A stretch of DNA of 64,000 bases from Gentiana macrophylla (taxonomy: Eukaryota; Streptophyta; Magnoliopsida; Gentianales; Gentianaceae). Both the position numbers and the translations under genes were made by a program. The notes beneath the pieces are model-generated. The model had not been told where the DNA came from and did not search any database. It worked only from the letters and a program-made list of their open reading frames with translations. The stretch is taken from the NCBI GenBank assembly GCA_026214975.1, contig CM047808.1, positions 10,442,267 through 10,506,266 of the forward strand. The letters are read 5' to 3'. This document shows, piece by piece, positions 2,585 through 61,869 of the stretch. The first letter of the stretch is position 1; every line of letters begins with the position of its first letter.

Positions 2585-2600
2585 GTGGTATCAGAGCCAT

Positions 2601-16313: not shown

Positions 16314-16656
16314 CAGGCGCCCGCTTGGAAGACCAGACGCCCGTCCCAAGACTCTCGCTGGGCGCCCGTCCAAAATATCGACGCCCGTCCGTGATGTATA
16401 GACGCCCGCCTACTCTAACAGAGTTAGATCTCGAATGTAAAACAACCCCTTAGACGTCCGTCCTGTAACCCAAACGCCGTCCCAAGGAAAAATTACCAGG
16501 CGGCAGGCGCCGTCCGTAAAACCCGGACGCCCGTCCCTTCTAACGGAGTTAGATCTCGAATGTAAAATAACCCTCCAGACGTCCGTCCGTAAACCAGACG
16601 CTGTCTCGAATCGAAATCCAGCAGACGCCCGTCTAGCGAGCCTGGACGCCCGTCCA
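16314..16656 (-). repeat. CGCCCGTCC doublet cluster, Tekay 3' LTR copy
   Basis: This is the same cluster as 23241-23578 in the partner LTR, with more apparent base errors at CCWGG/CAG sites. Copies of (g/a)gacgcccgtcc stand in pairs about 20-21 bp apart. Confidence 0.8.
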
Positions 16657-32772: not shown

Positions 32773-34190
32773 TGATGAGAGTCAACTTGGTGATCATCGC
32801 GCATTACGTCGAATATACTAGCAAGAGTACTAGGTCAAATTATAGCATAGCAACGGCGAATCAAGGTCGATCCCACAGAGTCAACGCAACTCAATCATAA
32901 ACGAATCTAACCTAACTAAAATATGGTCATTGACCAACAATAACATAGAAACGAACATGGTATTCCTCTCCCATCCCTACCTATGTACCAACTTGGCATA
33001 GTTATCCTTATGTTTACTTCCCACATAATTTCCCTAAATTAATCAAGTGTTTTAATTTAGTTTAGCTATGGGTGCTATCTCCTAACCCTATCTACTTCCA
33101 TTGTAATGAAAATAGACAATCTATATGCAACTAACCTCCTTCATTGGTTGTATTAGTCCATACGCGATAAATTCTAGAGATGCCGGCACGAGACCGAGAA
33201 CCTCCCTAAGCAGCCATCAACACTGACGAGCGCGTTCCTAGGGATCCATCAAGACTATGTCCTAACTAACACTTCACCTTCCAAGTCCTTCATGTTAATT
33301 TACGATATACGAATATTAGATTGGCCAGACCTAAGTAATCGTTTTAATTAATCCTGTCGATCAACGTAGCTGACGCTGAATCTCTAGATTAAGGTTCCTA
33401 AAAATTTACCGCGGTTAATCGGTATGGACCGCCAATTAACCGGGGGCATCATTTCCTATTCTGGAATCTACATTGCTTTGTTCTGATTAATTCAAGTACA
33501 TTATGGGGTCGTTAAACATGCATAACTACAACACGTAAAAACAAGTAGATCTACCATAATAAAGGCATAAAGGAACGTTCAAAGCTTCATACCTTCGGTT
33601 ATGGGAATCTAGCTTGATCTACTCAAGCTAGAGACGGTGTGGAGGGGAGAAAACCAGAAAATAAATCACAAAGGATCTAAAGAAACTTTATTGCATCAAA
33701 TCTAAATGAGAAGATATATTGTATTGTATTGCCTATGTTACAATTGGATTCTACGGCTTTATATAGATAATATAGCTTACTTAAGACTCTAATAAACCCG
33801 AACCGACCGAGTAGATGTGGCAGACTTTGGTTTCTTGTCCTCTAAGTCCTCGATAAATCGGGCCTGGGCTTCGATTAATCGGCCCAACTTTTCGTCCCTT
33901 TTTCTGGAAGATTTCTTTCTGGACTTCATTTACTTGGCCCAATGTCTTCCTTTCAGCCTAGATTCATCCTTAGCTGCTCCAGATTTTGATACATCCTGAA
34001 AAGTGTATAAAACAAGGCGGAACAGTACCAAATCTACGGGATAATAATAGAAATGCAGAATTGTGAACCTAGGAACATACATATAGCATTTAACATATAT
34101 TCCATACGATAATGAGCCTATCTATCGCCTCTCGAGCACAATTCGGGGTAAATAAGGGTATAAGTATTTGTAACATTTAGGGTGTCATCA
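32773..34190 (-). repeat. LTR of the Tat/Athila-type fragment
   Basis: 1.4 kb with inverted termini TGATGA...TCATCA. Minus-strand TATA candidate ctatataaag at 33766-33757. A palindrome doublet lies upstream of it (33851-33881). The ORF at 33817-33999 is not a gene. Confidence 0.8.
33851..33881 (-). repeat. CGATTAATCG palindrome doublet (LTR)
   Basis: cgataaatcg at 33851-33860 and cgattaatcg at 33872-33881, start to start 21 bp. They lie upstream of the minus-strand TATA candidate at about 33760. Confidence 0.8.
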
Positions 34191-35538
34191 ACTCCCCCCC
34201 CACTTAGCTTTTGATCGTCCCGAGCAAAAAGGCAAAAAGAAAATGAAACCCTGACCAATATACAAGCTACATAAAAACGGCGTTGTCTCACATAGTCACG
34301 ATAGAGATCATGTTAACTCATATCCATAAGTAACACATTAAACAATATTCACGTCATGAACCAATGTGAGTGTGCAATAACTCATCTATCCTTAGTAATG
34401 CGGACAATCGCACATTACGTCAACCCGTAGTCGAACTAACCATTCACGAACATGCTTTTCCCTTTACGCCATTTATTTAATTAATTGATTTTTTTACTTT
34501 TATTGCTTAGGTCAAGTCAACTGGGCAAGGCGGATCGAGAACTGAGTATTACTCTTAGGCTCAATTTATCGGTCTATTTTGTGCGAGGGTCGTGCGTCTT
34601 ACGCTCCATCGAATTTGCTTCCCTCTTTCTAAAGAGAAAGAACTAGCATATAACCATGATAATCATTTTTCTTTCTTTGTCTCTTTTTATCGGCAGGTAA
34701 ACTCTCAAAATTTATCCATCCTTACGGTCTACACTCATGATAAACTACCGAATTCATAACTCCTTAGCCCTTATAAGATCCACAACTTGACCTAAATGAC
34801 CATAGGTAGAACAAAATTCGAGATAAAGCTAGGGTCAACTCTAGTCAAAGCAATGCGCCATCTACTACATACCAGGGAAAGTGAGTTATACGTGCTTAGA
34901 ATGGTGGTTCATAAACAGAATATGCGTTTAATACACCAAGATTTGTAAGGGCCCGACTCTTATCTATGCATGGGAAACAAGGGTGTAATTAATCAACTCC
35001 AAAAGGTCAAAAACGTCATCTTTTTTCCAAATTTTTTTTATGAGACGAATCAAAGTCTCTGTGGTGAAAAATGCATTTAAGAGAATCAAGGTAATCAAGC
35101 AATCATCGGAATATAATGCTAAAAAGCTAAGTGACGCTCCTACCCCCCACTTAATCGAAGCATTGTCCCCAATGAAAAGATAAAAAATGAAAACAGAAAG
35201 GAACTTAGCTTTGGTAAGCGCGGAGCGGAAGAAGTAAACGGATCGCTATCAATTGCAAAGGGCTCAAAAGATAAATCCGGAAATCGCAATGCTTATCTCA
35301 TACAAAACAAGAGACGCAACTCGAGTGACAATAACCGTATAATTAAATTGAAGCAGTAAAAGAGAAACATAAAAACTCCTAAACCATGTTATGCCGAAAA
35401 AATGATTATATTAATATTAAAAGTCTGACATAATACTACTAGATAGGAATGAAAAGAAAAAAATAAAAATAAAAATAAAAATAAAAATAAAAATAAAAGA
35501 CTACAATGGAAAACAACAACAAGAAATAAGAAAAGAAA
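34191..35538. other. Non-coding 3' region of the Tat/Athila-type fragment
   Basis: This is the untranslated stretch between the env-like ORF and the 3' LTR, with the polypurine tract at 34191-34204. An (AAAAAT)n microsatellite lies at about 35459-35498. No gene is seen. Confidence 0.6.
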
Positions 35539-36657
35539 CTAGGAATCACCAAAGTCGGAATCGTAGTCCTCCTGTGGATCCGCATAATGCTCAAAACCAA
35601 GAGGCGGACCAGAAGTAGATGCAGCAGCAGCAGAAGTGGACGCTCCGCGATGTGGGGGAGCTCTTGGTGGTGGGGCGTAAGGAGGAATGGCTAGGAAGTC
35701 CATCATATAATCCATTTTACGGTGCAAACCCATAATCTCTCTTGCATTCTCCTCAATCAGAGCTATCTGAGATCGAGTTCCCCCGTGGACTGGAGTACGC
35801 TTTCGCTCGGCTCTCTGACCGACCCGTCTCTGTTGTCGCGAGACTGACTGTGAACTGAGTTTGGGCTCAGGCTCTTCCCAATCATCACTAACCAGAACCG
35901 GAACCTCACTTTCCAGAGCGAACATGTCAATCATAGGCCCATAAGGCAACTGCTCTCACTTGGATTCAACGGCAATGTCTTGAATTCGGCTATGCATGAG
36001 CAACGGATGTTGATCAGAGATTCCTGCTCCAGGTAGAACATCAACTCTTACCGCTTCGGTGTAACTGATGCCGTGTGCTTGGTCGGCAGAAGGTGGGAAC
36101 AGATGAATCTATTCAGCATCTTCATATCCCAAGATAGGTCATTCTCCAGGAAAATTGATGGGGCTCCCATCGGATTGCGTTTCCATACCACCCCAAAATA
36201 CTCAGCTATCATCTGCATCCTCTCCGGATCATTAACATTGGAGGATGATGTATATTCCTCCGGCCCGACTGGTGGGTTGCGCACCCCATAATACTCGTTG
36301 ATCCTCTCGATGGTGAAATCTACTTTCATCCATTGGACCATAGAAAATGTGGCTCCTGGGTTGTGCGCCAGATACGCGTAGAACTCTCGCACCACCGTGG
36401 CATTGAATCGGCTTGGTACTTCTGCCATATCGAGTATATCATGATACTTCATGGCTCTCGGTAAGATAGTGCAACAATCCTCCAAGTCGATGCCACGTTC
36501 ACGAGCAACATGTCGACTATTCCAATGACCTCTAAATGACTCGTAGATCTGTAGTTAATCGAATTGCTCAACCCCGTCTATTAAGGGGTTGGCATCGGCA
36601 TAGACAACCTGATGACCGCTTGGACGGCGAACAGTTATGTTGTGTTTTGGACCCATA
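35539..36657 (-). pseudogene. Env-like ORF, 'putative plant transposon protein' type
   Basis: It starts at 36657 (MGPKHNITVRRPSGHQ) and can be read to 35539 with an in-frame TAA near 36555, a frameshift near 36048 and a TGA near 35960. It shares the family pattern FNATVVREFYAYL, then a stretch around the IERINEYYGVRNPP motif, and a Pro/Ser-rich acidic tail ending DYDSDFGDS. Proteins of this family are commonly carried between pol and the 3' LTR in Athila/Tat elements; their role is not established. About 370 residues if continuous. A palindrome doublet stands 47 bp upstream of the ATG (36704-36734). Confidence 0.75.
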
Positions 36658-37088
36658 GTGGCTGAATACAGAGACTGCGGATTTCTGGAACAAAAATAAC
36701 CCGTGATTAATCGGACCCTACTGCCGATCAATCGTGCCTAATTTTTCATATTTTTCTCTGAAACAGGGCTATAGATAGAGAAAGAAGATGAATGGCCGTA
36801 GTGGCAATGGTACAGCAATGCAGCTCAGCACAAAGAATGGAAAATGAAGGTTTTGGAGGGAGTTTATGATTGGGGGTGTGGTGAAAATGGCTAATAGTGG
36901 TGGTGGTGATGGTGGAGGGAGTGGTGTCCGAAATTTATGAAGAAGAAGAAGAAGAAAGGAGGAAATTGATATTGAAGATGAAGGTTGTAGTTGGAGATGA
37001 AGAAGAATGAGGAGTAATGGGTGTTTAAATAAGAGAAATTAGGAGAAGATAGAAGGATTTAGTGGGATAGTGGGTTGTCCAAATTCAT
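36658..37088. other. Leader upstream of the env-like ORF
   Basis: On the minus strand there is a CT-rich leader with a TTATTTAAA element near 37030, then the doublet at 36734-36704, then the ATG at 36657. No coding signal is seen. The exact outer boundary with the Copia-B LTR lies between about 36740 and 37146. Confidence 0.5.
36704..36734 (-). repeat. CGATTAATCG palindrome doublet (internal)
   Basis: tgattaatcg at 36704-36713 and cgatcaatcg at 36725-36734, start to start 21 bp. It is the same family-specific palindrome as in this fragment's LTR. Confidence 0.75.
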
Positions 37089-37200
37089 TTAAGTACATGG
37101 AACTGTTGATACCAATGACTAGTCTGCTAAGTGAGCTCACCCAACATAGCAAAGACTAATCCCCTTGGTGAATTCCAATACACTGTTGTTTATTAATACC

Positions 37201-39140: not shown

Positions 39141-39645
39141 TCAATGCCTTGTCGATGAAGAATATCCCAAAAAGATTCCTTCATCTGATTTTGGTTGGAA
39201 TGTCTTCAATTGCTCCTTATGATTCAAGATAAAACACTTGCTTCCAAATGGATGGAAATAAGATATATTTGGTTTTCTTCCATTCCATATCTCATAAGGT
39301 GTCTTCAAGAGCTTCTTGTTCATCGAGGTCCTATTTTGTGTATAGCATGTCGTATTGATTGCTTCAGCCCAATATCTTTCAGGTAATAATGCTTCACAAA
39401 TCATAGTCCTTCCTGCTTCTTTCAAGGTTGTGTTTCTTCTCTCAGCAACTCCATTTTGCTGAGGTGTACCAAAGAAATGCTAATTGATGCGAGACACCAT
39501 TTTGCTCACAATATTCTCTTATGACTTTATTAAGAAACTCAAGACTTGTGTCGATCTCGATCTTCACTACTGTTAAACTTTTCTCATTTTGCAATCTCTT
39601 CAAAAGTTCAGGCATCTTTTGAAGTGTTTCACTTTTCGTGTTTAG
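39141..39645 (-). pseudogene. Copia-B integrase, distal half
   Basis: Minus-strand reading starts at the insertion border with TKSETLQKMPELLKRLQN. It continues through SLEFLNKVIREYCEQNGVSH, then (shifted) TPQQNGVAERRNTTLKEAGRTM and LLPERYWAEAINTTCYTQNR and KTPYEIWNGRKPNISYFHPF. These are the second half of the integrase core and its C-terminal GKGY-like region. The catalytic aspartate stretch reads KIEIDTSLEF where KIRSDRGTEF is usual, so the second catalytic D is shifted or lost. The proximal half is at 44598-44866. Confidence 0.82.
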
Positions 39646-39674
39646 CAGCGTTTATGTGTTTCAGTTTGAACGTA

Positions 39675-39825
39675 AACGGGCGTCCTGAGCTATTGGACGC
39701 CCGTCCGTCCAAATCTGGTAGTCTCTGTTTGTGTTTTGCCCAGGCAGACGAGCGTCCAGTAACTTGGACGCCCGTCCTGTTCTTTCTCCAGGCAGACGTC
39801 CGTCCAGTAACTTGGACGCCCGTCT
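39675..39825 (+). repeat. Three GGACGCCCGTCC doublets
   Basis: Pairs at 39675/39694, 39747/39766 and 39794/39814. Core-to-core steps are 20-21 bp. In the last two pairs the context reads caggcagacg..cgtccagtaacttggacgcccgtc, closely similar to doublets in the Tekay LTR at 23545-23581. Confidence 0.85.
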
Positions 39826-40530
39826 GGCCTGTCTGTCACCAGTTTTTTTATTTATTTATTTTTGTTTTAGGTAGATATCGTGGTTTAGGGTTTCTGTTTT
39901 TCGTAGGTAGGTTTCGTAGGTAAGTTTCTGAGGTTGAATTATCTGACTCCACGTTTTTCACGGTCAAATTTTTGGATTAAAGGGATCGTTTTAGCACTCG
40001 TTAGTATTTCGGCCGTAACTTTCGGCTCGAGTGTCCGTTTGGAACGCAGGACCCCAATTCGGAAAGCTCGTTCCGACGCCGACGACATGGCAAACTCACC
40101 ACGTTTTCGAGGTCAAAATCCACTGTTTTCCCATCCATTTTGGCCCTAGAAGATTTCACCACGTTTTTTTTTCCTCCGTCTTAGTGTTTTTTTTCTGTTT
40201 TAAATTTTTCGTAGGTAGGTTTCCGTTTCTTTTTTCTGTTTCTTTTCTTTCAATAAAAGTAGCGTCACACAAGTTGAGAGTTTTTATTTTTGCCGTGTTT
40301 CGATGACCGCTGGGTTAAGAATGTGCAAAAGTTTTTACTCGATTTGTGAAACGTGAAGTGTAACCTAATCAGAACCCAGTGCCCTCTCGTGCTTAAATTT
40401 ATCCGTGGTCTGCTTGTATGTGTGATTTGATGATATGAATTGCCATGAGTTTAAGATATTAGTTTAGGGTTTGCTGCGTTTTCCAATTTACTGCTGCGAA
40501 TTCGATGTTGGACGAAAGTTCAAGGTAAGA

Positions 40531-40713
40531 GAACGCCCGTCCGATCCATAACATGCAGTGAACGGGCGTCCCGACTATTAGACGCCCGTCCGTCGGGCTT
40601 TGCTCAACTCTGCTCCAGCTTTTTCGAGTCGACGAGCGTTCGGCTCATTGAACGCCCGTCCAAAGGTAAAATTTCCAGGCAAACGCCCGTTTGGTATGAG
40701 TGAACGCACATTC
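40531..40713 (+). repeat. Further GAACGCCCGTCC doublets
   Basis: Sites at 40531, 40560/40580, 40630/40650 and 40681/40702. The paired sites are 20-21 bp apart. Some arms are variant, such as gaacgggcgtcc and aaacgcccgttt, and they keep most of the dyad symmetry. Confidence 0.8.
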
Positions 40714-43121: not shown

Positions 43122-43602
43122 TTGTTAAGGGTGATTTTATACGTTTTATAAGGATATATTTTATATCAATTTCCCCCATATTCTTATGTTTTTCATAGAA
43201 ATCGAGCTTTATATTGAAATATTGAGTAAATGATGTTTTCAATGGTTAAATTGCAAAACGTAATGAATTAGGTGCTTAAATGGTGATTTTATATGATTTT
43301 GGAATTATGTTACGCTTTGGTATGTTTTCCTAATTTGTAGATACACATTGGTTATGGAAAAGATGATCTTAAAGAGAGAAATTCGAGTGGAGAAAGAATC
43401 AAAAGGATTTATGGAAGAATAAAAGATTTAAGGAAAGAAATCAAGTTGATTGATCCACCGGATCAAGCGCCCAGGGAGTGAACTAGCGTCGGTGTGGACG
43501 AAGCGTTTGAGGTTCCGGACGAGCGTCCCGTAAGAGGAAAAGTGATTCGAGAGAGTTCGGACGTTGTTTGGGCGAAAGCCCGCCCTTGAGTCCAAAGCAG
43601 TT

Positions 43603-43635
43603 GGACGGGCGTCCACCCAAAACGGACGGGCGTCC
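43603..43635 (+). repeat. GGACGGGCGTCC doublet upstream of the LTR TATA box
   Basis: Sites at 43603-43614 and 43624-43635, start to start 21 bp. They are the inverse-centre version (GGGC) of the GCCC sites elsewhere in the fragment. Confidence 0.85.
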
Positions 43636-43668
43636 ACCGCCGACTTAGCCTGGCCCGACCTAAAAATC

Positions 43669-43676
43669 TATATAAA
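43669..43676 (+). promoter_or_regulatory. Candidate TATA box, nested Tat/Athila-type LTR
   Basis: tatataaa, preceded by the doublet at 43603-43635 and followed by a short leader with aaccctaaacc. Confidence 0.6.
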
Positions 43677-44597
43677 GCAAATGCGCCTTCAACCCTAAAC
43701 CATACCATAATTTCTCATACACTAAAACCTGAGGAGCAGCCACACTTTGGGAGTCTCAGGGCGGTCACCCGAGCCTTGTGCTCGGGGTGATCCGAGGTTA
43801 GATTAGGATCGTTTTTTTCGTTTTCAATTCATGGATCATCCATTGTATAAACTATGTGAGTTCATCTTGTTGATTTATTCAAGCTTTGTTTATCTTCATG
43901 ATCTTTGATTTATTTTGTATCGTTCTATGATCATGATGCTATCGTGTGAACTCATATCGAGAGATTTGTTTACTAATTGATATGTTTACAACATACGGAA
44001 GTTGCGTAAACTAGATCACCGTAGAAAGATAGGATCTTTAATCGTTAATTCGTGACAAATTAATGGATTAATTATCTAGGTTGTTAGATTCTAAAATACG
44101 AGAGTTAACCTGAATCTACACCTTCGTTTTGTATGGAAATTGGTCTCAACATTCGGAAGAGGAGAGATCGGTAATTGAATTCACTAAGGAATTAGGAGTT
44201 CAAAGCTTGAGAAATAGATTCACTAAGAGATTAGGAATTTGTATCTCGTGTAAAGGTGAAACCACAATTTGAATTAAAATCATGAGATGAACTTGGATTG
44301 AAATCACTTGGTTTGTAGTATGTTTGATCCCATGTATCTTTAGTTTAGGTTGTTTTTATTGTTTGTTATAGGTTAGATTTATTTTAGTTGTTCTATCTTC
44401 GTTTATATGTTTTTCTTTCATTTATTTGTTTTCGTAAGTAACAATTGAAAGGAATTAATAAAACTAGATTCAACATCCCAATTCCCTGTGGATCGACCCC
44501 TTACTTATCTCGCTCTACTATCAACAACCCGGTATTCGGCCGGTTAGGAGTTAGTTTTGCATATAGGTTAGGGTTTATAAATTTTCTTTTTGTTTAG

Positions 44598-45240: not shown

Positions 45241-45247
45241 AACAAAG

Positions 45248-47516: not shown

Positions 47517-48051
47517 TGATGTGTAACATTTATATGATAAAAATTACGATGTTTTATATACGTTATCGACTCTTTTTATATAAAATATAATAAAATATAA
47601 CGATAATCTTATAAAATATTAATAGCTATGAATAAATCTAAATACCATAAAAATATAGTAAAAAAATGATAAAAAGTTATAAATTTTGTACCGGTTAATA
47701 ACCGGAGTGTCGTGTCGATTCACGTGGGTATTTTTGGTATTTTACGCACCTTAGGTAAACCACGACCCAGTAGTGACGACATTTTGTGGAGTAAAATCAT
47801 ATCTTTTGAAGGAATAAAGGAAGTGCCAAGAGATTTAAAGTTCAAGTGGACCAATGATTCGTGACGCCATATCAAGTTATATTTTCAACGAACAAATGGC
47901 CCAGCAAAAGGCATTTTCTGAAAAAGAAGTCTTCATGGAAGTTATAGATCTCCTCAAGAGCTTTCCAACGCATATTGAATTATGTCATTTGGAGATCCAG
48001 AGCTCAAGTTATGATTTTATCAAGTTTCGGATTAAGATTGAAAAATCTATC

Positions 48052-48083
48052 CGGATCGATCCGATTTACCTCGGATCGATCCG
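48052..48083 (+). repeat. CGGATCGATCCG doublet 1, 5' LTR
   Basis: Perfect 12-bp palindromes at 48052-48063 and 48072-48083, exactly 20 bp start to start. Confidence 0.95.
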
Positions 48084-48149
48084 AGGAGGCATAATGATTA
48101 TCCAAAGATGTGGCCCTGCAGAGAATATCCTGGATAATATTTTTATTCC

Positions 48150-48181
48150 CGGATCGATCCGCCCTTTCTCGGATCGATCCG
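48150..48181 (+). repeat. CGGATCGATCCG doublet 2, 5' LTR
   Basis: Perfect palindromes at 48150-48161 and 48170-48181, 20 bp apart, ending 17 bp before the TATA box. Confidence 0.95.
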
Positions 48182-48197
48182 CAAGGGAAAAATTGCC

Positions 48198-48205
48198 TAT
48201 AAAAG
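48198..48205 (+). promoter_or_regulatory. LTR TATA box, Athila-like 5' LTR
   Basis: tataaaag, set between the palindrome doublets and the presumed transcribed region. It is conserved at 61886-61893 in the 3' LTR. Confidence 0.75.
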
Positions 48206-50079
48206 GGCAAAGATTGCGTACACATGAGGGGTACCAAATATATTTCTTTTACCTCTTTCTAGTAGTAGTAGTATGTATATATATAGGCCTTATGCCATAA
48301 ATAAAGTAGTATCGCCATAATGCTCGAGAAATTATCGAAAGATCAATGTTGTTGAAGTTGTTGTAGCATCCGCATTTAATACATCTTCCGATCCAATCGT
48401 TGTAATCGGGTAAAATTTCTAAAGTATTTATGTTTATTATGTTTGTTTTTTATCTTTCGTGATAATGTTAGTAGGCTAAATCTAATAACTAGCCAAAGTT
48501 ATGTAATCGCTTTATTTCGATCTTTCGGTAAAGGAATGTTGTCTAAGTAAAATTGAATAAAAATTGAGTTAATTGAATCTTTTCTATTGATAAAGTTTGA
48601 CTTGAAAGAATTCATAATCTAATTATGAATTGACGCCTCGTAATTAAGTTATGAACTCGTTAATAGAAAAACCGGAGGGTAAAAATTGGCCGAGTGAAAA
48701 CGTGACAACGGAATCCGCTTTCCTATTCGGGGCGATTTGTCCTAAAAGATAAATCTTATTAAAATTTGTACTCAAGATCGTAATAATGTTAAAATCATCG
48801 CTTAATTGAAACTTAAACCGAAAGTTGAATCGCCCGCCTTGACAACCGGAACTTTTAAATAAAATTGACCGCTTGACGAACGGAATGACTCCTTTTATTC
48901 AAAGGTAGAATCGCACTCGGGACCTGCTCGTAAAAACCGTAATGCTGTGGATTTGGACCGATGACAATGGACATATGACAATTTCATACGCTAATGTGAG
49001 GACGAATTGTTAACCTTAGAGTACACCGCTTCATTTACTCAATTGAACCTAAAGATCGAGCACATTCCATTCAATTGAAAAGATCGTATAAATCAATTAT
49101 ATAAACTTTGGCTAGTTCTCTAATAATATATTTGGCATCTATATATTTATATCTATATATATATACTTTGCAACTTATGCACATCTATATATATTTATAT
49201 ATCTATATATATTATATTAGAATAAAATTTTAATTTACGTATTTATTTTATGTTGACTAGAATAGTAGTGATCTGTGTTATAAAATTGCGGTTTAGATCG
49301 AGTTAATAAAAGCTCTTTGGTGTTTAACCACACTTAGAAGAATTACAAAGTTCCTCGAGGATACGATACTCGACTCACCATACTAGCACTACAGCTTTGA
49401 CCCGATACAATCGTCGGTTAAGGACTCGTATTAGCACTAGAAAAGGCCACGTCAGCCTTTTCCGCGCCGCTGCCGGGAACGACGCTAATTTCTTTTTTGT
49501 GTCTATGGTTACTACTTGTATTAGCTCAAAATTCTCGAGAATAAGTCAACACTTTTCTTATCTCATTTCTAATTTTATTTTCATCAAGATTTCACCTTAT
49601 GTAAGTTACCAAATTTTACTACTATCAATTTCGTGTTATTTTCTAATTTCGTTAGTTGATGACCGTATGGTAAGGCCCCACTCACTCCTTATAAGCCTGA
49701 CATAAACACTTACGAAAAGCGCGCTAAGAGTAGAGAGAAAACGTGGTCATACTAGTCGTGAAATCCTGACGAATCGTCTTCAAACAAATACGAGAATGGT
49801 CAAATCGTTGATGAAACACCGAACAAGTGGCTGAACATGCTCAAGGCATGGACAAAACCCTCGTTAACCTTAATAATCAAAATAAAAATAATAATAGAAA
49901 TAATCGAATCGGACCGTAATAATCGTAATAACCCAAGAAACCCAAGGCCTATCTCGTGACCAAACCATAAGAAGAAATCGACTAATAATCCCATACTTTT
50001 ACCTAATGAAGGAGCGAATAATTTCGAGATTAAATCTCATCTTTTGGTTTAATTGACGCAAGAGCCCAATTCTAGGAGA

Positions 50080-51518: not shown

Positions 51519-52700
51519 AAATCCTAAGATTCTCGAAAGATCCCATGGATAAAGATTTAAGGACTTTATTTAAGGAACACATTAGAATGGAAGAAAATGA
51601 AAACAAGGATGAAAAACATGAAGAAATGAAGGAATCAAGTAGAGATGGATTCAGTGGAACAATTTAAAAGAAAGAATTCAAGAACTCAAACATGGCGATC
51701 GAGTAATACTCAAAGGTTTAAGGAAAAGGAAAAGAGAAACGACAAAGGAACCAAAGGTCATAGATTTAGAATCTTTACCTTACCCTCCTAAAGATCAAAT
51801 CAAAAAGGCAAAACTCGATAAGAAGTATGCTCGCTTCTCGACACTTTTCGTCATATTCAAGTTAATATCCTCAAGTATCGAAGCTTTGATTAATATACTC
51901 GCCTATGGAAAATTTCTCAAAGAAATTTCACAAACAAAAAAATTAGAGGAATATGAGAATATATGCCTAAATGAAGAATGTTCCGCACTTACAAGAACAT
52001 AAGTTACCACCTAAACTGAAAGATCCAGTAGTTTTACCATTCCGTGTGAAATTGGAGGATTTCTGCTTAAGAAGGTCTTATGTGATCTAGAGCAAGTATA
52101 AATCTCATGTCTTATGAGGATTATAGAAAGTTAGGCATAGAAAGCTTACTAAGATCGAAATGACTCTTAAAAATGGCGGATAGATCGATTAAGTACCCTA
52201 AAGGAATTATAAAGGACATATTGGTTAAAGTAGACAAATTCTATTTTCCAAGAGACTTTGTAGTTATGGAAATGGAAGACGGTTATTCCGCGCCTCTCAT
52301 TCTAGGTCGTCCATTTCTAGCTACAGAAGAACTTTAATCGATGTTCGTAAAGGAGAATTAATCTTAAGAGTCAATGAAGACGGTTACTTTCAATATTTTC
52401 AAAGCTATGAATCATGCATCAACAGAATCATGTTCTTTATAGAAGATATTCATTCTCGTCTATGATAATCGCTTACCAACTTTTGAAGACAGATTAGAAG
52501 AATGCTTAACTTTGTCTATCTATAAAGAAGATGAGGAAGACATTGAAATGAAAGAGATAATTCTTTCTTTAGATACGTAAAGTTTTACCTTTAAGCCACC
52601 ATGGCATAAGCACTTGAATTAGAACTAGAAGGACCGGTTCTTAAATCGTCAATAAAGATCCGCCAAAGAACCTGGACTTGAAACCATTACCTTTAAATCA
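51519..52700 (+). pseudogene. Athila-like protease region
   Basis: 51780-52330 reads, in several frames, LPPKLKDPVVLPFRVKLEDF, a damaged CDLxxxINLMSYEDYRKLGI block in place of the expected DLGASIN protease site, then PKGIIKDILVKVDKFYFPRDF and APLILGRPFL. These are the family's conserved protease-to-RT blocks. The catalytic triad is not intact at 52075-52105. No long frame is left. Confidence 0.75.
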
Positions 52701-54250
52701 AATATGCTTTTCTTGAAACCGATAATCTATTACCAATTATTATTTCATCGCCTTTAATCGAGCAACAAGAAGATCAATTACTTGGAATGTTGAAAAAGCA
52801 TAAGAAAGCTTTTGGATGGACAATTCTTTCGATATTCGAGGTATTAGCCCTGAGATTTGCGCTCATAAGATAATTCAAGGAAGATGCTAAGCCTTGTATT
52901 CAACCGCAACGCCGCCAACCCAAATTTGCGCTTAATTGTTAAGAAAGAGGTCATTAAGTCATTAGAGATGGGAATAATTTTTCCCATATCGAGATAGTGA
53001 ATGGGTAAGTCCAACTCAAGTGGTACCAAAGAAAGGAGGTTTCACAAAGAAAGAAAATGATAGAAATGAATGGATTCCAACAAGAGAAATTACAGGATAT
53101 CGAATGTGCATTGATTTTAGGAAACTAAATGATCATACTAAGAAAGATCATCATCCACTTCCATTCATAGTTCAAATGTTGGAACGGTTAAGTGGTCATA
53201 AATATTATCGCTTCTTAGATGGTTATTCAGATATTTACTGATTTTCATTGCAAAGCAGAGATAGGAAAAGACTACTTTCACTTGTCCTTATGGAACTTTT
53301 GCGTATAAAAGAATGCCGCTTGGTTTATGTAATGCTCCAAATGACGCTTTCAAAGATGCATGATGGCTATATTTTCTCGATATGGTTGAGAAATTCTTGG
53401 AAATTTTTATGGACGACTTTAGTGTTTACGGAGATTCTTTTGGTAAATGTTTATCGCACTTAGAAAGAGTGTTGCAACGTCATGAGGATACCAATTTAGT
53501 TTTAAATTGGGAGAAATGTCGTTTAATGGTATCGTAAGGAATTGTTCTAGGCCATAGAATCTCTCCGAATAGAATTGAAGTTGATAAAGCTAAGGTTGAA
53601 GTAATTGAAAAGTTACCACCACCGCTAATCTAAGGACTCGAGAGGATTTCTTGGACATGCAGGATTTTATAGAAGATTTATTGCAGATTTTTCAAAGATA
53701 GCAAAGCCCCTAAGTCATTTGCTTGAAAAGGAAGTACCTTTTAACTTCGATAGTAAATGTAAGGAAGCTTTTCGCACCTTAAAAGCGAAATTAACTCATC
53801 GCACTAAAGCTAATAGCACCGATTGGAATTTACCGCTTGAAATTATGTGTGATGCCGTGATTTAGCGGTAGGAGCAGCTTTTAGGTCAAAGATATAACAA
53901 AATTCTCAAAGCTATTTACTATGCATCTCATACGTTAAATGCAAATTTCACCGAACTATACAACTACGTAAAAGAACTCATATGTAATTTTTGCCTTAGA
54001 TAAGTTTAGATCGTATATTGTTGGTTCTAAGGTAATAATTTATACGCACTATTCACTTTGAAGTATTTGTTTTGAGTAAGAAAGATGCGAAACCACGCCT
54101 TCTTAGATGGATTCTCTTACTTCAGGAGTTCGATTTGGAAATTAAAGATAAAAAGGGAAGTGAGAATGTAGTAGCGATCATCTAAGTAGAATGGAAAATG
54201 ATGGAGAAAAGTGGAATAGAAATTAAAGATTCATTTCCGATGAACAACTT
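52701..54250 (+). pseudogene. Athila-like reverse transcriptase and RNase H
   Basis: 53020-53241 encodes RMCIDFRKLNDHTKKDHHPLPF and QMLERLSGHKYYRFLDGYS. A TGA follows (53239). Further blocks appear in shifted frames: KRMPLGLCNAP-type near 53310-53345, VEKFLEIFMDDFSVYG near 53385-53440 (catalytic DD present), and RNase H traces near 53690-54170. The segment gives the best RT for lineage assignment, although four or more frameshifts need correction before alignment. Confidence 0.82.
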
Positions 54251-54379
54251 TTAGAATAGATACTCCTTCAACCATGCAATTATTAAAGAATAGAATTCCT
54301 TCTAAGGAAATGTCACCTGGTTTGGAGATATCATTAATTACTTAACCTCGTGATTATATTCCGCCTCATTGACTTGGCA

Positions 54380-55560
54380 AAGCAGAAAGAAATTCTTTTA
54401 TGACTTAAAATTTTATTACCGGGAAGAACTGACCTTTTCCGTAAATGTTCGGATGGGATAATCGTAAAGTGTGTGCCTGATAATGAAATTTTAAGTATTT
54501 TATCATTTTGTCATGATCGTGAGGCAGAGGTCATCATGGAGGATGGAAAATCGCTTTTAAAGTTTTACAATGTGGTTTTTATTGGCCTACGCTATATGTA
54601 GATGCTTATAAGTATGTCAAATCTTGTGAATCTTGTCAAAATGGGGAAATGTATCTAAAAACATGAAATGCCTATGCAACCTATTTTAGAATGTGAGTTA
54701 TTTGATGTTTGGGGTATAGATTTCATGGGACCATTTCCTATATCTTTTGAAAAAGATTTATTCTAGTAATGGTAGATTATGTTTCAAATGGGTAGAAGTC
54801 AAGCTCTTCCCACTAATGATACCAAAGTTGTCATACGATTTCTTAAAAGAATATATTTACACGTTATGGCATTCCGAGGGCTATCATTAGTGATAGAGGT
54901 TCGCACTTTTGTAATAGACCATTTACCAAGATAATTGAAAAATATGGTGTAACGATAAGTTAGAACGCCTATCATCCGCAAACCAAAGGGTCGCAGAGGT
55001 GTCTAATAGAGAGATCAAAAGAATTGTAGAAAAGACAAAGGATTCAAATCGAAAAATCAAGGCGCTTAAACTAGACGATGCATTATGGGCATATAGAATG
55101 CCTTTTAAAACACCAATTGGTTGTTCTCCTATAAGTTAGTTTTTGGTAAGTCGTGTCATCTCCTGGGCTGAGTTAGAACACCGAGCCTTCCGGGCTATTA
55201 AATTTTTGAATTTCGATCCTAAGGTCAGCCGGTGATCATAGATTGCTTCAATTGATGTAACTAGAAGAATTCCGCCTCTCGATTCTTATGAAAACGCCGA
55301 ATCTACAAGAACGCACGAAATCCTTTCACGATAAGAGAATCTATAGTCGTGAGTTCCATGTAGGCGATCGAGTGCTCTTGTACAATTCACGCTTAAAGTT
55401 ATTTCCAGAAAGCTTAAATCAAGATGGACAGTCCATTTAAAGTAACGAGAGTTTACAAATCTGAGCCGTTGAACTAATCGATGGAAATACAACTTTTATA
55501 GCCAATGGCCATAGAGTAAAGTTATTTGTGGAAGGAGAAGGAACCGCATCAAAGAAGAAA
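54380..55560 (+). pseudogene. Athila-like integrase
   Basis: A zinc region (CHDREAE... YKYVKSCESCQ) lies at 54510-54645. [12 protein letters not shown] with the first catalytic Asp is at 54715-54750, then [10 protein letters not shown] near 54765-54790. AISDRGSHF-type and [12 protein letters not shown] core blocks follow at 54885-54985, and [15 protein letters not shown] at 55077-55120. Integrase C-terminal traces reach about 55560. Frames change repeatedly and the stop-rich gaps prevent any continuous translation. Confidence 0.78.
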
Positions 55561-56750
55561 TAATGCTACTAATCGATCCTCCGACAAAGTAAAAAGCAGA
55601 GAAATCGAGAAACGAAAAGCGTAGAGTTAAACTCACCAAATACCAAAGCTATCTATCTTTACTCTATTTTTTTGTGTTTTAGTTATGTTTAAAGTAGTTT
55701 CGCTTTTTACCGGATAGACGTAAAAGAACTGGATGTCTTTTTTAGATAGAATAGAAATTTTTATACTGCTTTTAAAATTAGGCTTGATAAAGATGTCGCG
55801 CTTTAAGATAGAAGCTTCGCTTTTGAGAAAACAAGCAATTGTTGAGAGAGATCGATCGAAAGAACTATGTAATGGAAAATCGAGAAGTTCGATAAAGAGA
55901 AGGGCAAAGTTTTTAAGAAGGTGTGTAAGCCGTGGGAAAAAGTGAGCATGAAGGGAAATGTAGGAAAGCACAACCAAATCCTGTGATGAGTGTTTGAATG
56001 TTGTTAAGAAGGAACGATTAGGTGGTTATCCGAAAATCCCGATGGAGATCAAAGAGAAAATTCAACGCCTCATTTCTTAAGGTTAGGTTGATAGAACGTT
56101 ACATCGTAACTCCGGAAGATTTAGAAGTATTGGAATTAGACCCTCGTGAATTTTGTAGTACTTATAAAATTTTTATATAACTTTTGAAAATTTTATAAAT
56201 AGGATCTTTATGAAATTACTTAAAAGTTTTATAAAGTTTTTATAAAAAAGTTTTTTAAGTTTAAAAAAAAAAAAAAAAATTTGGTCGGATCGATCCGACC
56301 TAACCCCGATCGATCCGAACTCGAAAAACCTAAAAAAGGGACGGGGACCTCTTTCTTCTTCTTCTTCTTTTTTTCTAAAACAGCCGCCTCCCCCCTTCTC
56401 CCCAATTCGAATTTTTTCCTTCAAATCATCACACACTATCACCATTAAACTACACCACTTCTTAAACTTTTCTCATTTTCCACTCCTCTCTTCAAATTTG
56501 CATTTACATTGAAGTAATTTTCAAGGGAAAGCTTCAACTTTCATTCCGGCGACTTTCCATCTTTTCCGGCCAAATTTCAACCTCTTTAAGCTTTGTAAGG
56601 TAACATTGTAGTCACTTATTTTCTTAATTTCGCTTTTTATGCAATTTTTATTTTTCAACTGCTTTGTCACTCACATTTGTATTGTTGTTTTGTGTGTTGT
56701 TTTGTTTTTTTTTTTTTTGTGTTGTTTTGTTATTGTATCATTATCGTAGA
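55561..56750 (+). other. Spacer between integrase and env-like ORF, with doublet and CT-rich leader
   Basis: No gene is seen; the ORF at 55733-55945 is not family-like. An A run lies at about 56262-56279, a CGGATCGATCCG doublet at 56286-56317, a taaaaaaggga element near 56330, then CT-rich leader DNA up to the ATG at 56751. The layout resembles a promoter plus 5' UTR. Confidence 0.5.
56286..56317 (+). repeat. CGGATCGATCCG doublet, upstream of env-like ORF
   Basis: Sites at 56286-56297 (perfect) and 56306-56317 (one mismatch, ccgatcgatccg), 20 bp apart. Confidence 0.9.
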
Positions 56751-58242
56751 ATGGCCGAATCATCCAAAGCTAGTAAAAACGCAAACCGCATATCCCTACC
56801 CAAATTCCAGCTTATAGAAACTAGGCCTTTAATGTAAGAAGAATTGGCGCTTAGTTTTGAAAGAACTGTCTGCTGCAGCTAAGAAAGCATTGAAAAATAA
56901 ATTTGGGCAGTGTTTAGTTGCAATAGAGAGGGGCTTAGACTTTAAAGATTTGGGAAGGGAGGTGAAGGAAATTTTTGAAAGGCGACATTGGATGGAATTA
57001 GCCAGTTTAAGGTCGGGAGAAATTAACACCACCTTAGTAGCAGAATTTTATTCTTTGGTAGCAACTCACAATGCTACGGATGAAGGTGAGTTAACCTCTC
57101 ACAACCTCGAGAACTAGGACAAAGGCTGCTTACTCTCACATTATTAATGCTATTTATGGTATTCCCGATATACCGGAGAATGAGGATTATTATACGCTTT
57201 GGAATTTGGATGAGCCAAAGACTTTGATCATATTGTTGCGGTAGCCTGTAATGAGTTAGATCCCATCGCTGCCTGGCATGAAAACAGTTTTCCTATGGGA
57301 AATGTATCCGGATATGAAAGCCATTAAACGCTTTATCACCACACTTTACCCGACTCGGCATTTTACATCTTTTGGTAAAGAGGATTTGTGTATTGCTTGG
57401 GCTATAGTTAATGATGTACCGTGGATATAGGCAGAGTGATGTGTAGTAGGGGCCAAGGATTTTGCCCTGATCGCTAGACCAGCAAATACATGCCTTTTCC
57501 GTGTTTTATTTCTTCCTTGTGTCGCCGATAGAGTCCCCGAGCTCCCAAATGATAATTTGATGATGGTGGATGACACACTTATAGGTCCTAGTTTACCACT
57601 TAGGCCGGGCAGAAGAATAAACTTTTGGACCCTAACCGTCAACGACCTCACCTACTCCATCTATCTGCCGTCCCTCCTTCATCCAAATAAACTCAAACTC
57701 ATCTTCCCAATACCATCACTTACGACATGTTTCAATCCATGGCCTATGATGTTCATCGTGCTAATGCCAATATGGTCAAGCTTTTTGCGGAAAGGAATAA
57801 ATTATGGTCTCAAGATTTACGCCAAGGCATACGAGGTTTATATCAAATGAATATACCGCAAAACCCTACCTATGCCGAGATGGATATTCCGCAATGCCAA
57901 ACCCAAATTTTATACCTTGCCCGATTTCATTCCACCGATGCCACCACCCTCGCATTTCCAACAAATGCCGCATTCTTTTGGATTTCAAACTAGTGGTGTA
58001 GGAGATTTTTCGACAGTACTATGGCAAATGCGACATCGTAATGGACTGATCTCGATCATTTGGCCATACCACGATGAGATGGGGAAGCACTTTTTCCGAT
58101 ATCACGAGAGAGATGAGCTCGATGGGACTAGATAGCTCGGTACGGATGTCAACTTATTTTCAAGATCCATCCCAAGAATCGACCCGTTCTCAAGCTATGC
58201 CAAGTTCAAGACACGTCGAGCTGAGTGATGAAGAGGAGTGAT
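56751..58242 (+). pseudogene. Athila-like env-position ORF ('putative plant transposon protein' type)
   Basis: The ATG at 56751 opens MAESSKASKNANRISLPKFQ. After a shift near 56840 the frame 56857-57117 reads LVAIERGLDFKDLGREVKEI and EINTTLVAEFYSLVA, the pattern of this family. INAIYGIPDIPENEDYYTLW follows near 57145-57205. Later pieces (57557-57850, 57727-58135) include MVDDTLIGPSLPLRPG and FAERNKLWSQDLRQGIRGLY. About 490 codons if continuous. Despite its position, I see no clear signal peptide or membrane segment, so an envelope role is not supported. Confidence 0.7.
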
Positions 58243-58529
58243 AATTTTTAAACATTCTCTGGTTTTTGACATTGAAACAATTTTATTTATCATGCACTTT
58301 TTCTTTTTTTTTTTTTTTTTTTCTTTAAATTTTAAGTTGTTTTGATCATAGTAGAATATTATACGATTTTCATGTTTTCATTGCATATTATGGTATTAAG
58401 CATCGTGTAGAAAAATTTATCGTTATAACGTAATGAAAGTGAACCAAAAATAGGAAGAAAACTTGTCACCTAGAAAAAAACTAGGCATTTTTCATGCAAA
58501 ATCGACTCATCCGTGAACAAGATAATGTT

Positions 58530-58561
58530 CGGATCGATCCGCTTTTCACCGGATCGATCCG
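58530..58561 (+). repeat. CGGATCGATCCG doublet, internal promoter-like region (first)
   Basis: Perfect sites at 58530-58541 and 58550-58561, 20 bp apart. Confidence 0.95.
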
Positions 58562-58602
58562 ACGTGAGTATACCGACCGACAACATTATCGATTCGTGAG
58601 GT

Positions 58603-58634
58603 CGGATCGATCCGCCCTTTCTCGGATCGATCCG
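58603..58634 (+). repeat. CGGATCGATCCG doublet, internal promoter-like region (second)
   Basis: Perfect sites at 58603-58614 and 58623-58634, 20 bp apart. The spacer ccctttct matches that of LTR doublet 2. Confidence 0.95.
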
Positions 58635-58766
58635 TAGTACAAAACGCGCAGTAAAGTAGATCTTTTCTACTTTTGCTTGATAGATGTATTCTATAAAAGG
58701 AAAGAGCAACAACCAACCTTTTGCTCATTCTTTCCTTTCTTCTATTTTAATTTCTCTATTTCGTAA

Positions 58767-59640
58767 ATGTCTAACCGATCCTCTCCTCGGTTAATAGTTA
58801 TGAGCCACATACGCTGATGGTGTGGTCCCAAGGCGGCATGCCTCTTGTTTTCATAATAACGCCCCGAGACATCTAAATTTCGTCCGCTCTCCTATTCTCG
58901 ATGGAGAAAGGCTTAAACACCAAAAAATTGATCGCTGGGGACGAATCTAATCCGAGGTCATGGGTGGAAAAAGTTGATAAGGACTCCTGCAGGACGAGTA
59001 AACATTTCGATAGTTAGAGATTTCTTTGCGCTCTCAATGAGATAACGACAAGAGCCTCATCTCAACTTATTACGCTTAGGGAATCGTTATTTCATTTTCA
59101 CCAGCTTATCATAAATCAAATCTATCAAATTCCACCATGTACTTTTGATCAAAACCCACACTTCGAGTTTCTTTGGGAACTTGGGGATGCGATAATGTTG
59201 TAAACCGCATCGCAGGCCTTCGATTCAGATTTCCGCTGTTTGATCATAACTATGATTCTTCAACTCGCTTTATCCCCTCATTTAAGGGCTTGGAAACGCT
59301 TCATTAATTCTCGGATCTATCCAACTGTAGATTTTTATGGGGTTACGGATGATGAGATGTCATTGTTGTATCGCTGGATCGTGGAGCATACATTGATCGG
59401 GGAGTTTTGATTTTTAAGACCGCAATTAATTTTGCGAAGAGAAAGACGTAATAGGGGAAAACCGCTACCATTTGCCTGGTTATCTCTCACCTTTGTATCC
59501 AATCAATCACGTGCTCGAGTTTGCTATCGACGAGATTTTTCCATCTCGTGATTCTCGCTAGATTACTTCCGTGGATACTCCCGGATGTTCATCTACGGTT
59601 TGATAATCGCCAGAGTTGTGTTGCTAAGATGGTAGTTGTT
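58767..59640 (+). pseudogene. Second extra ORF of the Athila-like element
   Basis: ATG at 58767 (MSNRSSPRLIVMSHI), then frequent stops. Readable pieces include KRFINSRIYPTVDFYGVTDDEMSLLYRWIVEH (near 59295-59390, quoted as YPTVDFYGVTDDEM and LLYRWIVEH) and LPGYLSPLYPINHVLEFAIDEIFPSRDSR (near 59475-59560). These resemble a plant transposon-protein domain more than a cellular gene. I cannot assign a function. Separate TATA-like and leader signals upstream suggest it was once transcribed independently. Confidence 0.45.
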
Positions 59641-61211
59641 TAAATTAGTTGTTTAATTGTTTTTTGTTGTTTGTTGCTTTTATTTATAGTTTGTAATAGT
59701 GTTTAATATATATGTCATTTTCTTTAATCAAAATAATATATGGTTGCTAAAAATAAGAAATAATAATCAAATCATATAAAATTTTAATTTTATTTGCAAC
59801 TCATTTTTTATTTACTCATCAACATCGGATTTATGTCATTTCGTAAGTGGGGAGTGGAAGTAAGTTAGTAAATAAAAATTAAAATTTTCTTATATAAATG
59901 TATACTTAATTGCTCAATACTTAGTTTAATTTTTCTTGAAACAAAATAATTAGATAATATATAATTAATATGAATAAAAACAATATAAATTGGTAAGAAT
60001 AGATTTTAATTAAGTAAAATAAAGTAGATATATTATAATTATATTATATATGTCAATTTTAGATCTTTATAAGATTTTAAGTATATGTAACTATACATAA
60101 ATATTATCAAGTAAGTTTCATATGAAATTTTAGCAAATATACTTATATTTATAATGAATTTTTAGAATAATTTTCTTTGTAAAATGAAATATGAATATGG
60201 AATCGGATTAGAATGATGAGATTTTGACACCACAAAATTACCTCAACCTTGATTAGAGTGATCAAGACCTCACTCTCGAAATATTTTTTGATCATAACCA
60301 CCCTTGGCTTATTTTGGTCTACATTTCCTAAAAATCCTACGAGTTTGTACGTATTTATGAAAGGAGATGATAGCACGTGTTTTAAGGATGGTGTATGTTG
60401 AGGTGAAAAAAAAAAAAAAAAAAAAAAAAAACCATATTAATCGAATACTGTATCTTCCTTATCTTTGATCAACAGATATCGGTAGTAGCTTCCAATGATT
60501 TGAGTGCAAGAGGTGTTATCTAGAAACGCCCTATATCACTACGAGGTATAAAGCTCCCGATAAAAATTTGAATCATAAGATCTCAAGAATGATTACGAGT
60601 TTAAGGAAACCGACTCGTAATTTTAGATCGAAAGAGTATTACTCCGATCAATCTTGATGAAGCAATGCCTCAGAAATTTGATTTTCTACACACACTCACG
60701 CTTTTAGTTCTTAATATTGAAAAAGAAGAGAGAAAATCTGAAAAATAGTTGGAAAAGGAGATATTATTAATCGAAACTGCTTTTGATCAAACGTGAAGGT
60801 GTAAGACGCATTTACTTGCTTCTTCTCTTTTGATTTCTTTTCTATCTTTTCGATTAACCAATGTCCTATCCTAAAAGTATTAGCCATCTTGTCAATTACT
60901 TGACTTAGTCTTTGATTCCAAATATTTCATATAAGTTGAGATAGGAAAATAATTCTAGAATTTTAATTATATTTATTGAGTAAATGTTGTGAAATTTCAT
61001 TTGAATAATAGTTGATAAATAATTTATCAAAGTTATCTACACTTTTATCTTATTAATTTCTAAGAAAGATATAATTAATATGTTTATAATATTGAAATGA
61101 TATTTTACTAATTTAAAAATTGTATCTACCACTTATATTATTTTTATCGTAATTTTTATATATTATCGCTTATTTTGCTTTATGACGATCAAAGAGCTAA
61201 GTGGGAGTAGT
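59641..61211 (+). other. AT-rich 3' untranslated region of the Athila-like element
   Basis: No gene is visible. Very AT-rich, with an A run of about 26 bases at 60405-60430, then the polypurine tract gctaagtgggagtagt (about 61196-61211) that would prime plus-strand DNA synthesis. Confidence 0.7.
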
Positions 61212-61739
61212 TGATGTGTAACATTTATATGATAAAATTACGATGTTTTATATACGTTATCGACTCTTTTTATATAAAATATAATAAAATATAACGATAA
61301 TCTTATAAAATATTAATAGCTATGAATAAATCTAAATACCATAAAAATATAGTAAAAAATGATAAAAGTTATAAATTTTGTACCGGTTAATAACCGAGTG
61401 TCGTGTCGATTCACGTGGGTATTTTTGGTATTTTACGACCTTAGGTAAACCACGACCCAGAGTGACGACATTTTGTGGAGTAAAATCATATCTTTTGAAG
61501 GAATAAAGGAAGTGCCAAGAGATTTAAAGTTCAGTTTGACCAACGATTCGCGACGCCATATCAAGTTATATTTTCAACGAACAAATGGCCCAGCAAAAAG
61601 GCATTTTCTGAAAAAGAAGTCTTCATGGAAGTTATAGATCTCCTCAAGAGCTTTCCAACGATATTGAATTATGTCATTTGGAGATCCAGAGCTCAAGTTA
61701 TGATTTTATCAAGTTTCGATTAAGATTGAAAAATCTATC

Positions 61740-61771
61740 CGGATCGATCCGATTTACCTCGGATCGATCCG
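61740..61771 (+). repeat. CGGATCGATCCG doublet 1, 3' LTR
   Basis: Perfect sites at 61740-61751 and 61760-61771, 20 bp apart. Confidence 0.95.
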
Positions 61772-61837
61772 AGGAGGCATAATGATTATCCAAAGATGTG
61801 GCCCCGCAGAGAATATCCTGGATAATATTTTTATTCC

Positions 61838-61869
61838 CGGATCGATCCGCCCTTTCTCGGATCGATCCG
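61838..61869 (+). repeat. CGGATCGATCCG doublet 2, 3' LTR
   Basis: Perfect sites at 61838-61849 and 61858-61869, 20 bp apart, 16 bp before the TATA box. Confidence 0.95.

Follow-up and report, generated by a model that had tools for sequence, protein, structure and literature searches.

The window analysed here is a stretch of 64,000 nucleotides (nt) from Gentiana macrophylla (GCA_026214975.1, contig CM047808.1, positions 10,442,267–10,506,266, + strand), in which several retrotransposons carry, within their long terminal repeats (LTRs) or internally, short dyad-symmetric boxes arranged in close pairs, hereafter doublets. A reading made from the sequence alone had described three types of box in this arrangement, and all three are present at the sites then given, with steps of 19–21 bp, the step being the start-to-start distance of two box units and the gap the number of bases between them. 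The same geometry recurs elsewhere in this genome in boxes of other sequence, and many of the arrays lie just ahead of a TATA box, which disposition suggests to us promoter-proximal sites that would be read by protein dimers.

The doublets and their host elements

The box CGGATCGATCCG, a true and perfect palindrome, belongs to an element spanning approximately 47517–63146, with CATAC at either side and a Retrotrans_gag domain at 50089–50388 (E 1.4e-14). The LTRs, the CATAC flanks, and that domain identify it as a Ty3/gypsy element, which we take to be Athila-like, the name given in the sequence-only reading. With four copies per LTR and six internally, the box has 10 copies in this element.

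47517..49454, + strand: 5′ LTR of the Athila-like Ty3/gypsy element, 97.4% identical to 61212–63146
48052..48083, + strand: doublet 1 of the 5′ LTR, CGGATCGATCCG twice, step 20
48150..48181, + strand: doublet 2 of the 5′ LTR, step 20
48197..48206, + strand: TATA box CTATAAAAGG, 16 bp past doublet 2; identical box at 61885 in the 3′ LTR
56286..56317, + strand: internal doublet A, 434 bp upstream of ATG 56751 of an env-like open reading frame (ORF)
58530..58634, + strand: internal double doublet B, 58530/58550 and 58603/58623
58691..58700, + strand: TATA box CTATAAAAGG, 57 bp past doublet B and 67 bp before ATG 58767
61740..61869, + strand: two doublets of the 3′ LTR copy

The 32 bases of doublet 2 (48150–48181), spacer included, are found again at 58603–58634. 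Downstream of doublet A there is merely a degenerate TATA-like word, and the env-like ORF has a weak Transposase_32 match (56833–57114; E 0.022, under Pfam's cut-off). Doublet B lies 3′ of that ORF and 5′ of another decayed reading frame; doublet B, the TATA box at 58691, and the ATG at 58767 probably constitute an internal promoter.

Between 33 and 47 kb the − strand encodes the copia domains Pol_BBD, gag_pre-integrs, SH3, and RVT_2, which are interrupted at about 39.65–44.6 kb by a piece containing boxes of the form GGACG-NN-CGTCC and are followed by a Transposase_32 ORF. That 5-kb piece (39640–44600) splits the copia integrase and has TTTAG at both edges (39641 and 44593), its ends not being of the TG..CA type.

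33757..33766, − strand: TATA box CTATATAAAG, 85 bp downstream of doublet 33851–33881
33851..33881, − strand: CGAT(T)AATCG doublet, step 21
36051..36554, − strand: Transposase_32 (PF20167) ORF fragment, E 1.8e-15, behind doublet 36704–36734
36704..36734, − strand: second CGAT..ATCG doublet, step 21, each unit one change from CGATTAATCG
39674..39825, + strand (assumed): three GGACG-NN-CGTCC doublets, steps 21, 20, and 20
40531..40661, + strand (assumed): GGACG/GAACG-type boxes at 40531, 40560, 40580, 40630, and 40650, steps 29, 20, 50, and 20
43517..43635, + strand (assumed): single box at 43517 and doublet 43603/43624, step 21
43668..43677, + strand: TATA box CTATATAAAG, 33 bp past doublet 43603/43624

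The doublet 33851–33881 is probably in the U3 of a − strand 3′ LTR, whose start was judged by eye. The other, 36704–36734, stands 48 bp ahead of an ATG at 36656 that itself precedes the Transposase_32 ORF, with no TATA box after the doublet; this ORF may form part of the copia element or of an adjoining gypsy fragment, PF20167 being reported, together with a predicted nuclear signal, from an accessory ORF of sunflower Athila (PMC11728184). A search of a protein database for its homologues returned eight candidates, none of them at E ≤0.001, and a structure model of it (mean pLDDT 37.4) was unusable and set aside. Since the boxes at 33–37 kb adjoin Ty1/copia pol and the Transposase_32 ORF, the Tat-type fragment that had been proposed at 32.8 kb is not established. 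Within the 5-kb piece, the doublets 39746–39777 and 39794–39825 are 48 bp apart and have the same spacer.

The GGACG-type boxes are also found in a pair of LTRs that we call Tekay-like from the LTR ends and the primer site: 6028–6736 plus 16099–17408 (the left LTR, with a copia element nested inside) and 22334–24324, the element having in addition a weak − strand integrase match under Pfam's cut-off. Two long copia ORFs at 2520–6112 (+ strand), which run from gag to integrase and then to reverse transcriptase, end approximately where the left Tekay-like LTR starts.

16335..16655, − strand: GGACG-type array of the left Tekay-like LTR, steps 25, 19, 21, 52, 73, 52, 46, and 21
23262..23581, − strand: matching array of the other Tekay-like LTR, steps 21, 19, 21, 52, 21, 32, 21, 53, 47, and 21
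8038..8069, + strand: candidate doublet TGCATAAATGCA/TGCATGCATGCA in a copia LTR, step 20; copy at 15417–15448

In both copies of the copia LTR doublet an AT-rich, TATA-like run, TATATATA, follows 9–11 bp on.

A constant step in boxes of different sequence

With up to two mismatches, CGGATCGATCCG has 15 matches in the window against 0.88 expected, of which the 14 with at most one mismatch form seven pairs, every one with a step of 20 (48052/48072, 48150/48170, 56286/56306, 58530/58550, 58603/58623, 61740/61760, and 61838/61858; pair counts in the window take in both LTR copies of an element), the lone two-mismatch copy at 59312 being unpaired. GGACG-NN-CGTCC has 30 matches at the same threshold against 1.26 expected; many of these are paired at steps of 19–21 (in 16335–16655, 23262–23581, 39674–39825, 40531–40661, and 43603–43635), and others lie 25–73 bp from a neighbouring box. 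The excess of CGATTAATCG at up to one mismatch is modest, with six matches against 2.0 and one of 100 shuffles reaching six, and its two pairs, 33851/33872 and 36704/36725, both have a step of 21. All three boxes had been called palindromes, which description is strictly true of CGGATCGATCCG; the arms of GGACG-NN-CGTCC are symmetric about two unpaired centre bases (CC, GG, AG, or TC), and CGATTAATCG is perfect in only one of its four units (33872).

A scan for similar CpG-containing 12-mer dyads up to 80 bp apart yielded 16 pairs, 10 of them at a step of 20 or 21 and the other six linking neighbouring pairs; the average over 60 dinucleotide shuffles was 0.07 pairs, and no shuffle had one at 19–21. 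When a G+C condition replaced the CpG requirement, 12 of 19 pairs had a step of 20 or 21 and the copia LTR doublet 8038/8058 surfaced, while 100 local (500-bp) shuffles again averaged 0.07 pairs, none of which had a step of 19–21. The observed/expected CpG ratio at the boxes was 0.98–2.96 against 0.80 for the window, at a GC content of 0.38–0.60, some flanks being as high or higher.

In the 1.79-Gb genome, where the counts of pairs are lower bounds, CGGATCGATCCG forms at least 6532 pairs at a gap of 5–12 and at least 826 at a gap of 13–43, the pattern read backwards giving no pair in either range. Among the matches listed, nearly all the pairs of the wider range had a gap of about 40, which resembles the distance from doublet to doublet in the internal unit. 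The first 50 + strand places listed, all on one contig and with steps counted by eye, comprised 32 at a step of 21, nine at 20, six at 22, and three at 19, with none at a gap of 5, 6, 11, or 12; thus the step of 20 seen in the window is the lesser form among these places, and 21 the commonest.

An independent sample of 20 intervals of 10 kb (200 kb), taken at fixed distances on two chromosomes of the same genome and labelled L0xx, was scanned as well. Strict dyads gave 18 pairs, seven at steps of 20–23, against shuffled means of 0.7 pairs and 0.05 at 19–22. With arms of five and a centre of 2–4 there were 82 pairs of similar boxes within 80 bp, including 28 at steps of 20–24 and none at 12–19 or 25–27; 20 shuffles of the 200 kb gave a mean of 0.7 pairs with none at 19–24, and a direct-symmetric control gave 21 pairs, three at 20–24. 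The smallest step was 20–24 in 17 of 21 clusters, two of which are doubtful box pairs (L009 at 2314 and L010 at 2319), the exceptions being 35, 39, 42, and 52. When sample and window are taken together, the smallest step was 19–24 in 28 of 33 clusters, and 42 of 94 nearest-neighbour steps fell at 19–24 with none at 12–18. The peak at 20–22 bp recurs in several families, the further ones being ACGTTTAAACGT and ACGTTTGGACGT, AGGCGCACGCCT, GAACG-NN-CGTTC, CGGACCGGGCCG, TGACGTCA, and CGGATCGGTCCG, some of them known from a single pair; repeated CpG 12-mers of any kind, for their part, had a broad distribution of distances.

The spacers are distinct in 41 of 43 doublets (34 from the scan and nine added by hand, with second LTR copies and three doubtful ones omitted), and their likeness to the next stretch averages 0.31 against 0.29 when shuffled, only a few resembling it (L010 at 6535, L017 at 8539, and L013 at 5533). 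Beyond the main peak, the larger steps are phased near 10.5 bp (P 0.0002 without the steps of 19–24, on counts that are not independent), which we regard as suggestive. The main contention of the sequence-only reading, a constant geometry with a variable sequence, thus held in the 200 kb, in several families and with unrelated spacers; in this genome the peak stands above shuffled sequence and the doublets extend beyond the few copies in which they were first noticed. The step had been given as 20 or 21 bp (19–21 in the Tekay cluster); in the 200 kb it peaks at 20–22.

Two loci of the sample carry such boxes in inverted repeats. In L010, repeats of about 1.9 kb (1–1861 and 5426–7295; 91.8% identical) contain TACGTTTGGACGTA arrays with steps of 21 and 31 and lie beside a MULE transposase ORF (7843–9264), so that the doublet geometry occurs there outside LTR elements and the design may reach beyond retrotransposons. 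In L017, a short inverted repeat (7787–8113 and 8348–8668; 86%) carries ACGTTTAAACGT-type boxes with steps of 22–24.

Position of the arrays relative to TATA boxes

With both strands counted, the window contains six instances of the pattern CTATA[AT]AA[AG]G, five of which (four without the second LTR copy) are 16–85 bp downstream of a doublet. Because that pattern was fixed after viewing, the published Sirevirus TATA consensus, as read from the publication and with up to one mismatch allowed, was tested as well, on nine window groups, in which each pair of LTRs is represented once and the copia doublet at 8038 is omitted; weak TATA-like words inside AT-rich runs were left uncounted as promoters. 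The consensus lay within 100 bp of four of the nine groups (background 0.026, P 5e-5; on either strand, P 8e-4), and of one in the diverging control. Among the 21 genomic clusters, CTATAWA occurred outward within 200 bp in 10 (background 0.111 per cluster, P 3e-5) and inward in one.

In four of four further genomic copies inspected (L003–L006, two of them near-identical) the TATA box likewise lies ahead of the doublet. In L021 a TATA box comes 8 bp after an array, and a 435-amino-acid Transposase_32 frame, for which the best match in the PDB (E 0.27) was unconvincing, lies in line with them about 0.5 kb beyond; in L024 a gypsy reverse transcriptase, an array, and a TATA box are followed, 1.3 kb on, by a partial Transposase_32 match under Pfam's cut-off. 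The TATA boxes of the arrays in L016 and L020 are oriented in the same direction as the gypsy reverse transcriptase or gag ORF beyond, and in L014 a doublet lies past the integrase of a gypsy element; gypsy-type gag, reverse transcriptase, or integrase was found in L014, L016, L020, and L024.

Two features of the window stand apart from the arrays: a 417-amino-acid open frame with an F-box (25677–26927, − strand), of which 26018–26539 is 77% identical to 1289–1832, and a direct duplication (27204–27471 and 27609–27872; 83% identical).

Interpretation and comparison with known systems

Unrelated spacers of constant length, self-symmetric units, and outward TATA boxes are consistent with doublets that protein dimers would occupy from one side of the helix, and we infer, with a probability of about 0.7, that the doublets are promoter-proximal boxes of that kind, whose occupation would activate transcription. 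Each unit, as a dyad of two half-sites in opposite directions, would suit a protein homodimer, and units 20–22 bp apart, or about two helical turns, would place two dimers side by side, probably with cooperation. In many elements the array stops 6–121 bp upstream of a TATA box, whether in the U3 of the LTR or in probable internal promoters near accessory ORFs (env-like or Transposase_32); the sequence of the box varies between families of transposable elements, the GGACG type being common to several, and the spacing is kept. Of the two possibilities put forward at the outset, a dimeric protein reading two helical turns is accordingly the one that the position before TATA boxes favours, the binding itself being putative.

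A number of observations weigh against this interpretation. There is no TATA box within 100 bp in five of the nine window groups (Tekay, 39.7, 40.6, 36.7, and internal A) and no outward CTATAWA within 200 bp in 11 of the 21 genomic clusters; one of the 10 clusters that have it is a doubtful box pair (L010 at 2319), and none lies near the inverted-repeat arrays of L010 and L017. The looser word TATAWAWR, found outward in 13 of 21 clusters (background 0.183) and inward in five, blurs the direction, and for the array 23262–23581 it occurs only upstream, 314 bp away. The strand of the groups at 39.7, 40.6, and 43.6 kb is assumed. For nearest neighbours the 10.5-bp phasing beyond 24 bp is weak (P 0.026), some steps (28 and 48) are out of phase, and duplication of modules, as over 48 bp at 39.7 kb, also plays a part. 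Finally, covariation does not discriminate between symmetry inside each unit and pairing of one unit with the other (P 0.53 and 0.41).

That hairpin, in which the two units would pair within transcripts as a stem of 10–12 bp with a loop of 8–9 nt and either signal dimerisation or packaging or provide the template of small RNAs of 21–22 nt, from which the step of 20–22 nt would follow, seems to us unlikely. Single-strand folds do surpass shuffles in seven of eight stretches (z −5.75 to −2.67), three of 11 GGACG-type doublets (39794, 40630, and 23262) match better between units than within them, and palindrome-rich Sirevirus LTR regions of maize are small-RNA hotspots (PMC10760457, PMC5311732). 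Such folding is nevertheless trivial for any two palindromes; the best fold leaves the units unpaired with each other in four of the eight stretches, and the Tekay stretch folds no better than chance (z −1.24). The self-symmetry of each unit would be superfluous for a hairpin, which the CC/CC and GG/GG centres would moreover disrupt, only six of 22 central positions pairing between units; in two doublets (16623 and 23549, its counterpart in the other LTR) the match is better inside the units, and across the 11 doublets the units pair with each other no better than permuted partners do (P 0.41). The TATA box ahead would also go unexplained.

It is similarly improbable that a single old system of boxes was spread by recombination between elements, in which event the families would not be independent. 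GGACG-NN-CGTCC is indeed common to the Tekay-like LTRs, the 39.6–44 kb piece, L013, L016, L021, and L024, and the form RRRCG-NN-CGYYY fits several families; CGGATCGATCCG, CGATTAATCG, and ACGTTTAAACGT, however, fall outside that form and still have steps of 20–23.

Quite unlikely, too, is the proposal that the doublets are operators of self-contained circuits, in which an accessory nuclear protein (of the Transposase_32 type, as in the Athila-like element) would bind the palindrome of its own family. Two dimers would then switch on both the LTR and the promoter of the accessory gene, or shield both from silencing, and box and protein would co-diverge between families under a fixed two-turn geometry.

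A mutational by-product, in which slippage or unequal exchange multiplied the boxes and the step is a legacy of old duplications, is very unlikely: the shared spacer at 39746–39777 and 39794–39825, the recurrence of 48150–48181 at 58603, and the few spacers like the next stretch do testify to plain duplication, which can account for part of the peaks at 48–53 and 69–73, but nearly all the spacers are distinct and on average unlike what follows, different families arrive at one step, and repeated CpG 12-mers in general are broadly spread.

If promoter-proximal boxes read by dimers hold in other plants, similar dyads 20–22 bp apart facing a TATA box would offer a simple rule by which to locate LTR and internal promoters where elements have little other sequence in common, and a Sirevirus feature would be extended to Ty3/gypsy elements. 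Two questions become testable: whether the reader of the boxes is a host protein or the element's accessory protein, and whether a family-specific box lets related elements escape one another's control.

Our literature search found, by title or start of abstract, no description of gypsy elements with such boxes, subscription journals being mostly outside its coverage; it returned nothing on helical-turn palindromes in plant LTR retrotransposons and, by title, no plant-transposon work for the exact box sequences. The portions considered of PMC11302176 and PMC11963269 contain no such boxes, and the palindromes at insertion targets in PMC6911290 are a separate matter. IMG/VR held no CGGATCGATCCG doublet; its two GGACG-type hits (L001 and L002) are GC-rich contigs in which GGACGSSCGTCC forms part of 23-bp tandem repeats, and are unrelated.

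The sequence-only reading knew of no named feature of this kind, which statement has to be amended, since the repeated-motif (RM) boxes described in Sireviruses (Bousios et al. 2010, PMC2829016) are palindromes that stand ahead of the TATA box and recur before the env gene; constant spacing of pairs is not mentioned in the sections examined. RM boxes were found in 13 Sireviruses and were absent from the remaining copia elements of that study, the TATA box lies on average 37 bp past the RM island, and most have a CGG-CCG core, Tnd-1 being without it (PMC2829016). The boxes of the window resemble these in being family-specific, dyad-symmetric, and CpG-rich; some of the arrays stand in an LTR a short way before a TATA box, and further copies precede env-like genes. 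RM boxes form a CpG island; the boxes here combine a CpG ratio above that of the window with a GC content of 0.38–0.60 and with some flanks that match or exceed them. Dyad symmetry is perfect in CGGATCGATCCG and confined to the arms in GGACG-NN-CGTCC; the core is present in CGGATCGATCCG and absent from GGACG-NN-CGTCC and CGATTAATCG. Against the eight or more RM copies per element, the Athila-like element has 10. Doublets 56286–56317 and 36704–36734 precede env-like/Transposase_32 ORFs, as do the arrays of L021 and L024 (the L024 match being under Pfam's cut-off), and the array is shortly upstream of a TATA box in four of nine window groups (≤100 bp) and 10 of 21 genomic clusters (≤200 bp). Unlike RM boxes, those described here have mostly Ty3/gypsy hosts instead of Ty1/copia Sireviruses, the boxes at 33–37 kb adjoining copia pol. 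The LTR palindromes of maize Sireviruses are alike in forming clusters in the LTR regulatory region that are able to form hairpins (PMC10760457, PMC5311732), and maize Ty3/RLG elements are reported to be generally without an obvious peak of such structures (PMC10760457).

By analogy with VANDAL transposons, family-specific boxes would result if an element encoded a protein that acts on members of its own family by way of short repeated motifs. VANC is the name of the VANDAL anti-silencing protein, and motif arrays belong to that system. VANDALs are DNA transposons, unlike the retrotransposons here, in which the reader of the boxes is putative; the anti-silencing function of their proteins is mentioned in PMC11728184. 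An analogy of arrangement may be offered by Grande, whose accessory gene has its own promoter and encodes a nuclear protein (PMC11963269); the presumed counterpart of that gene here would lie in the 3′ internal region and likewise have a promoter of its own and a nuclear product.

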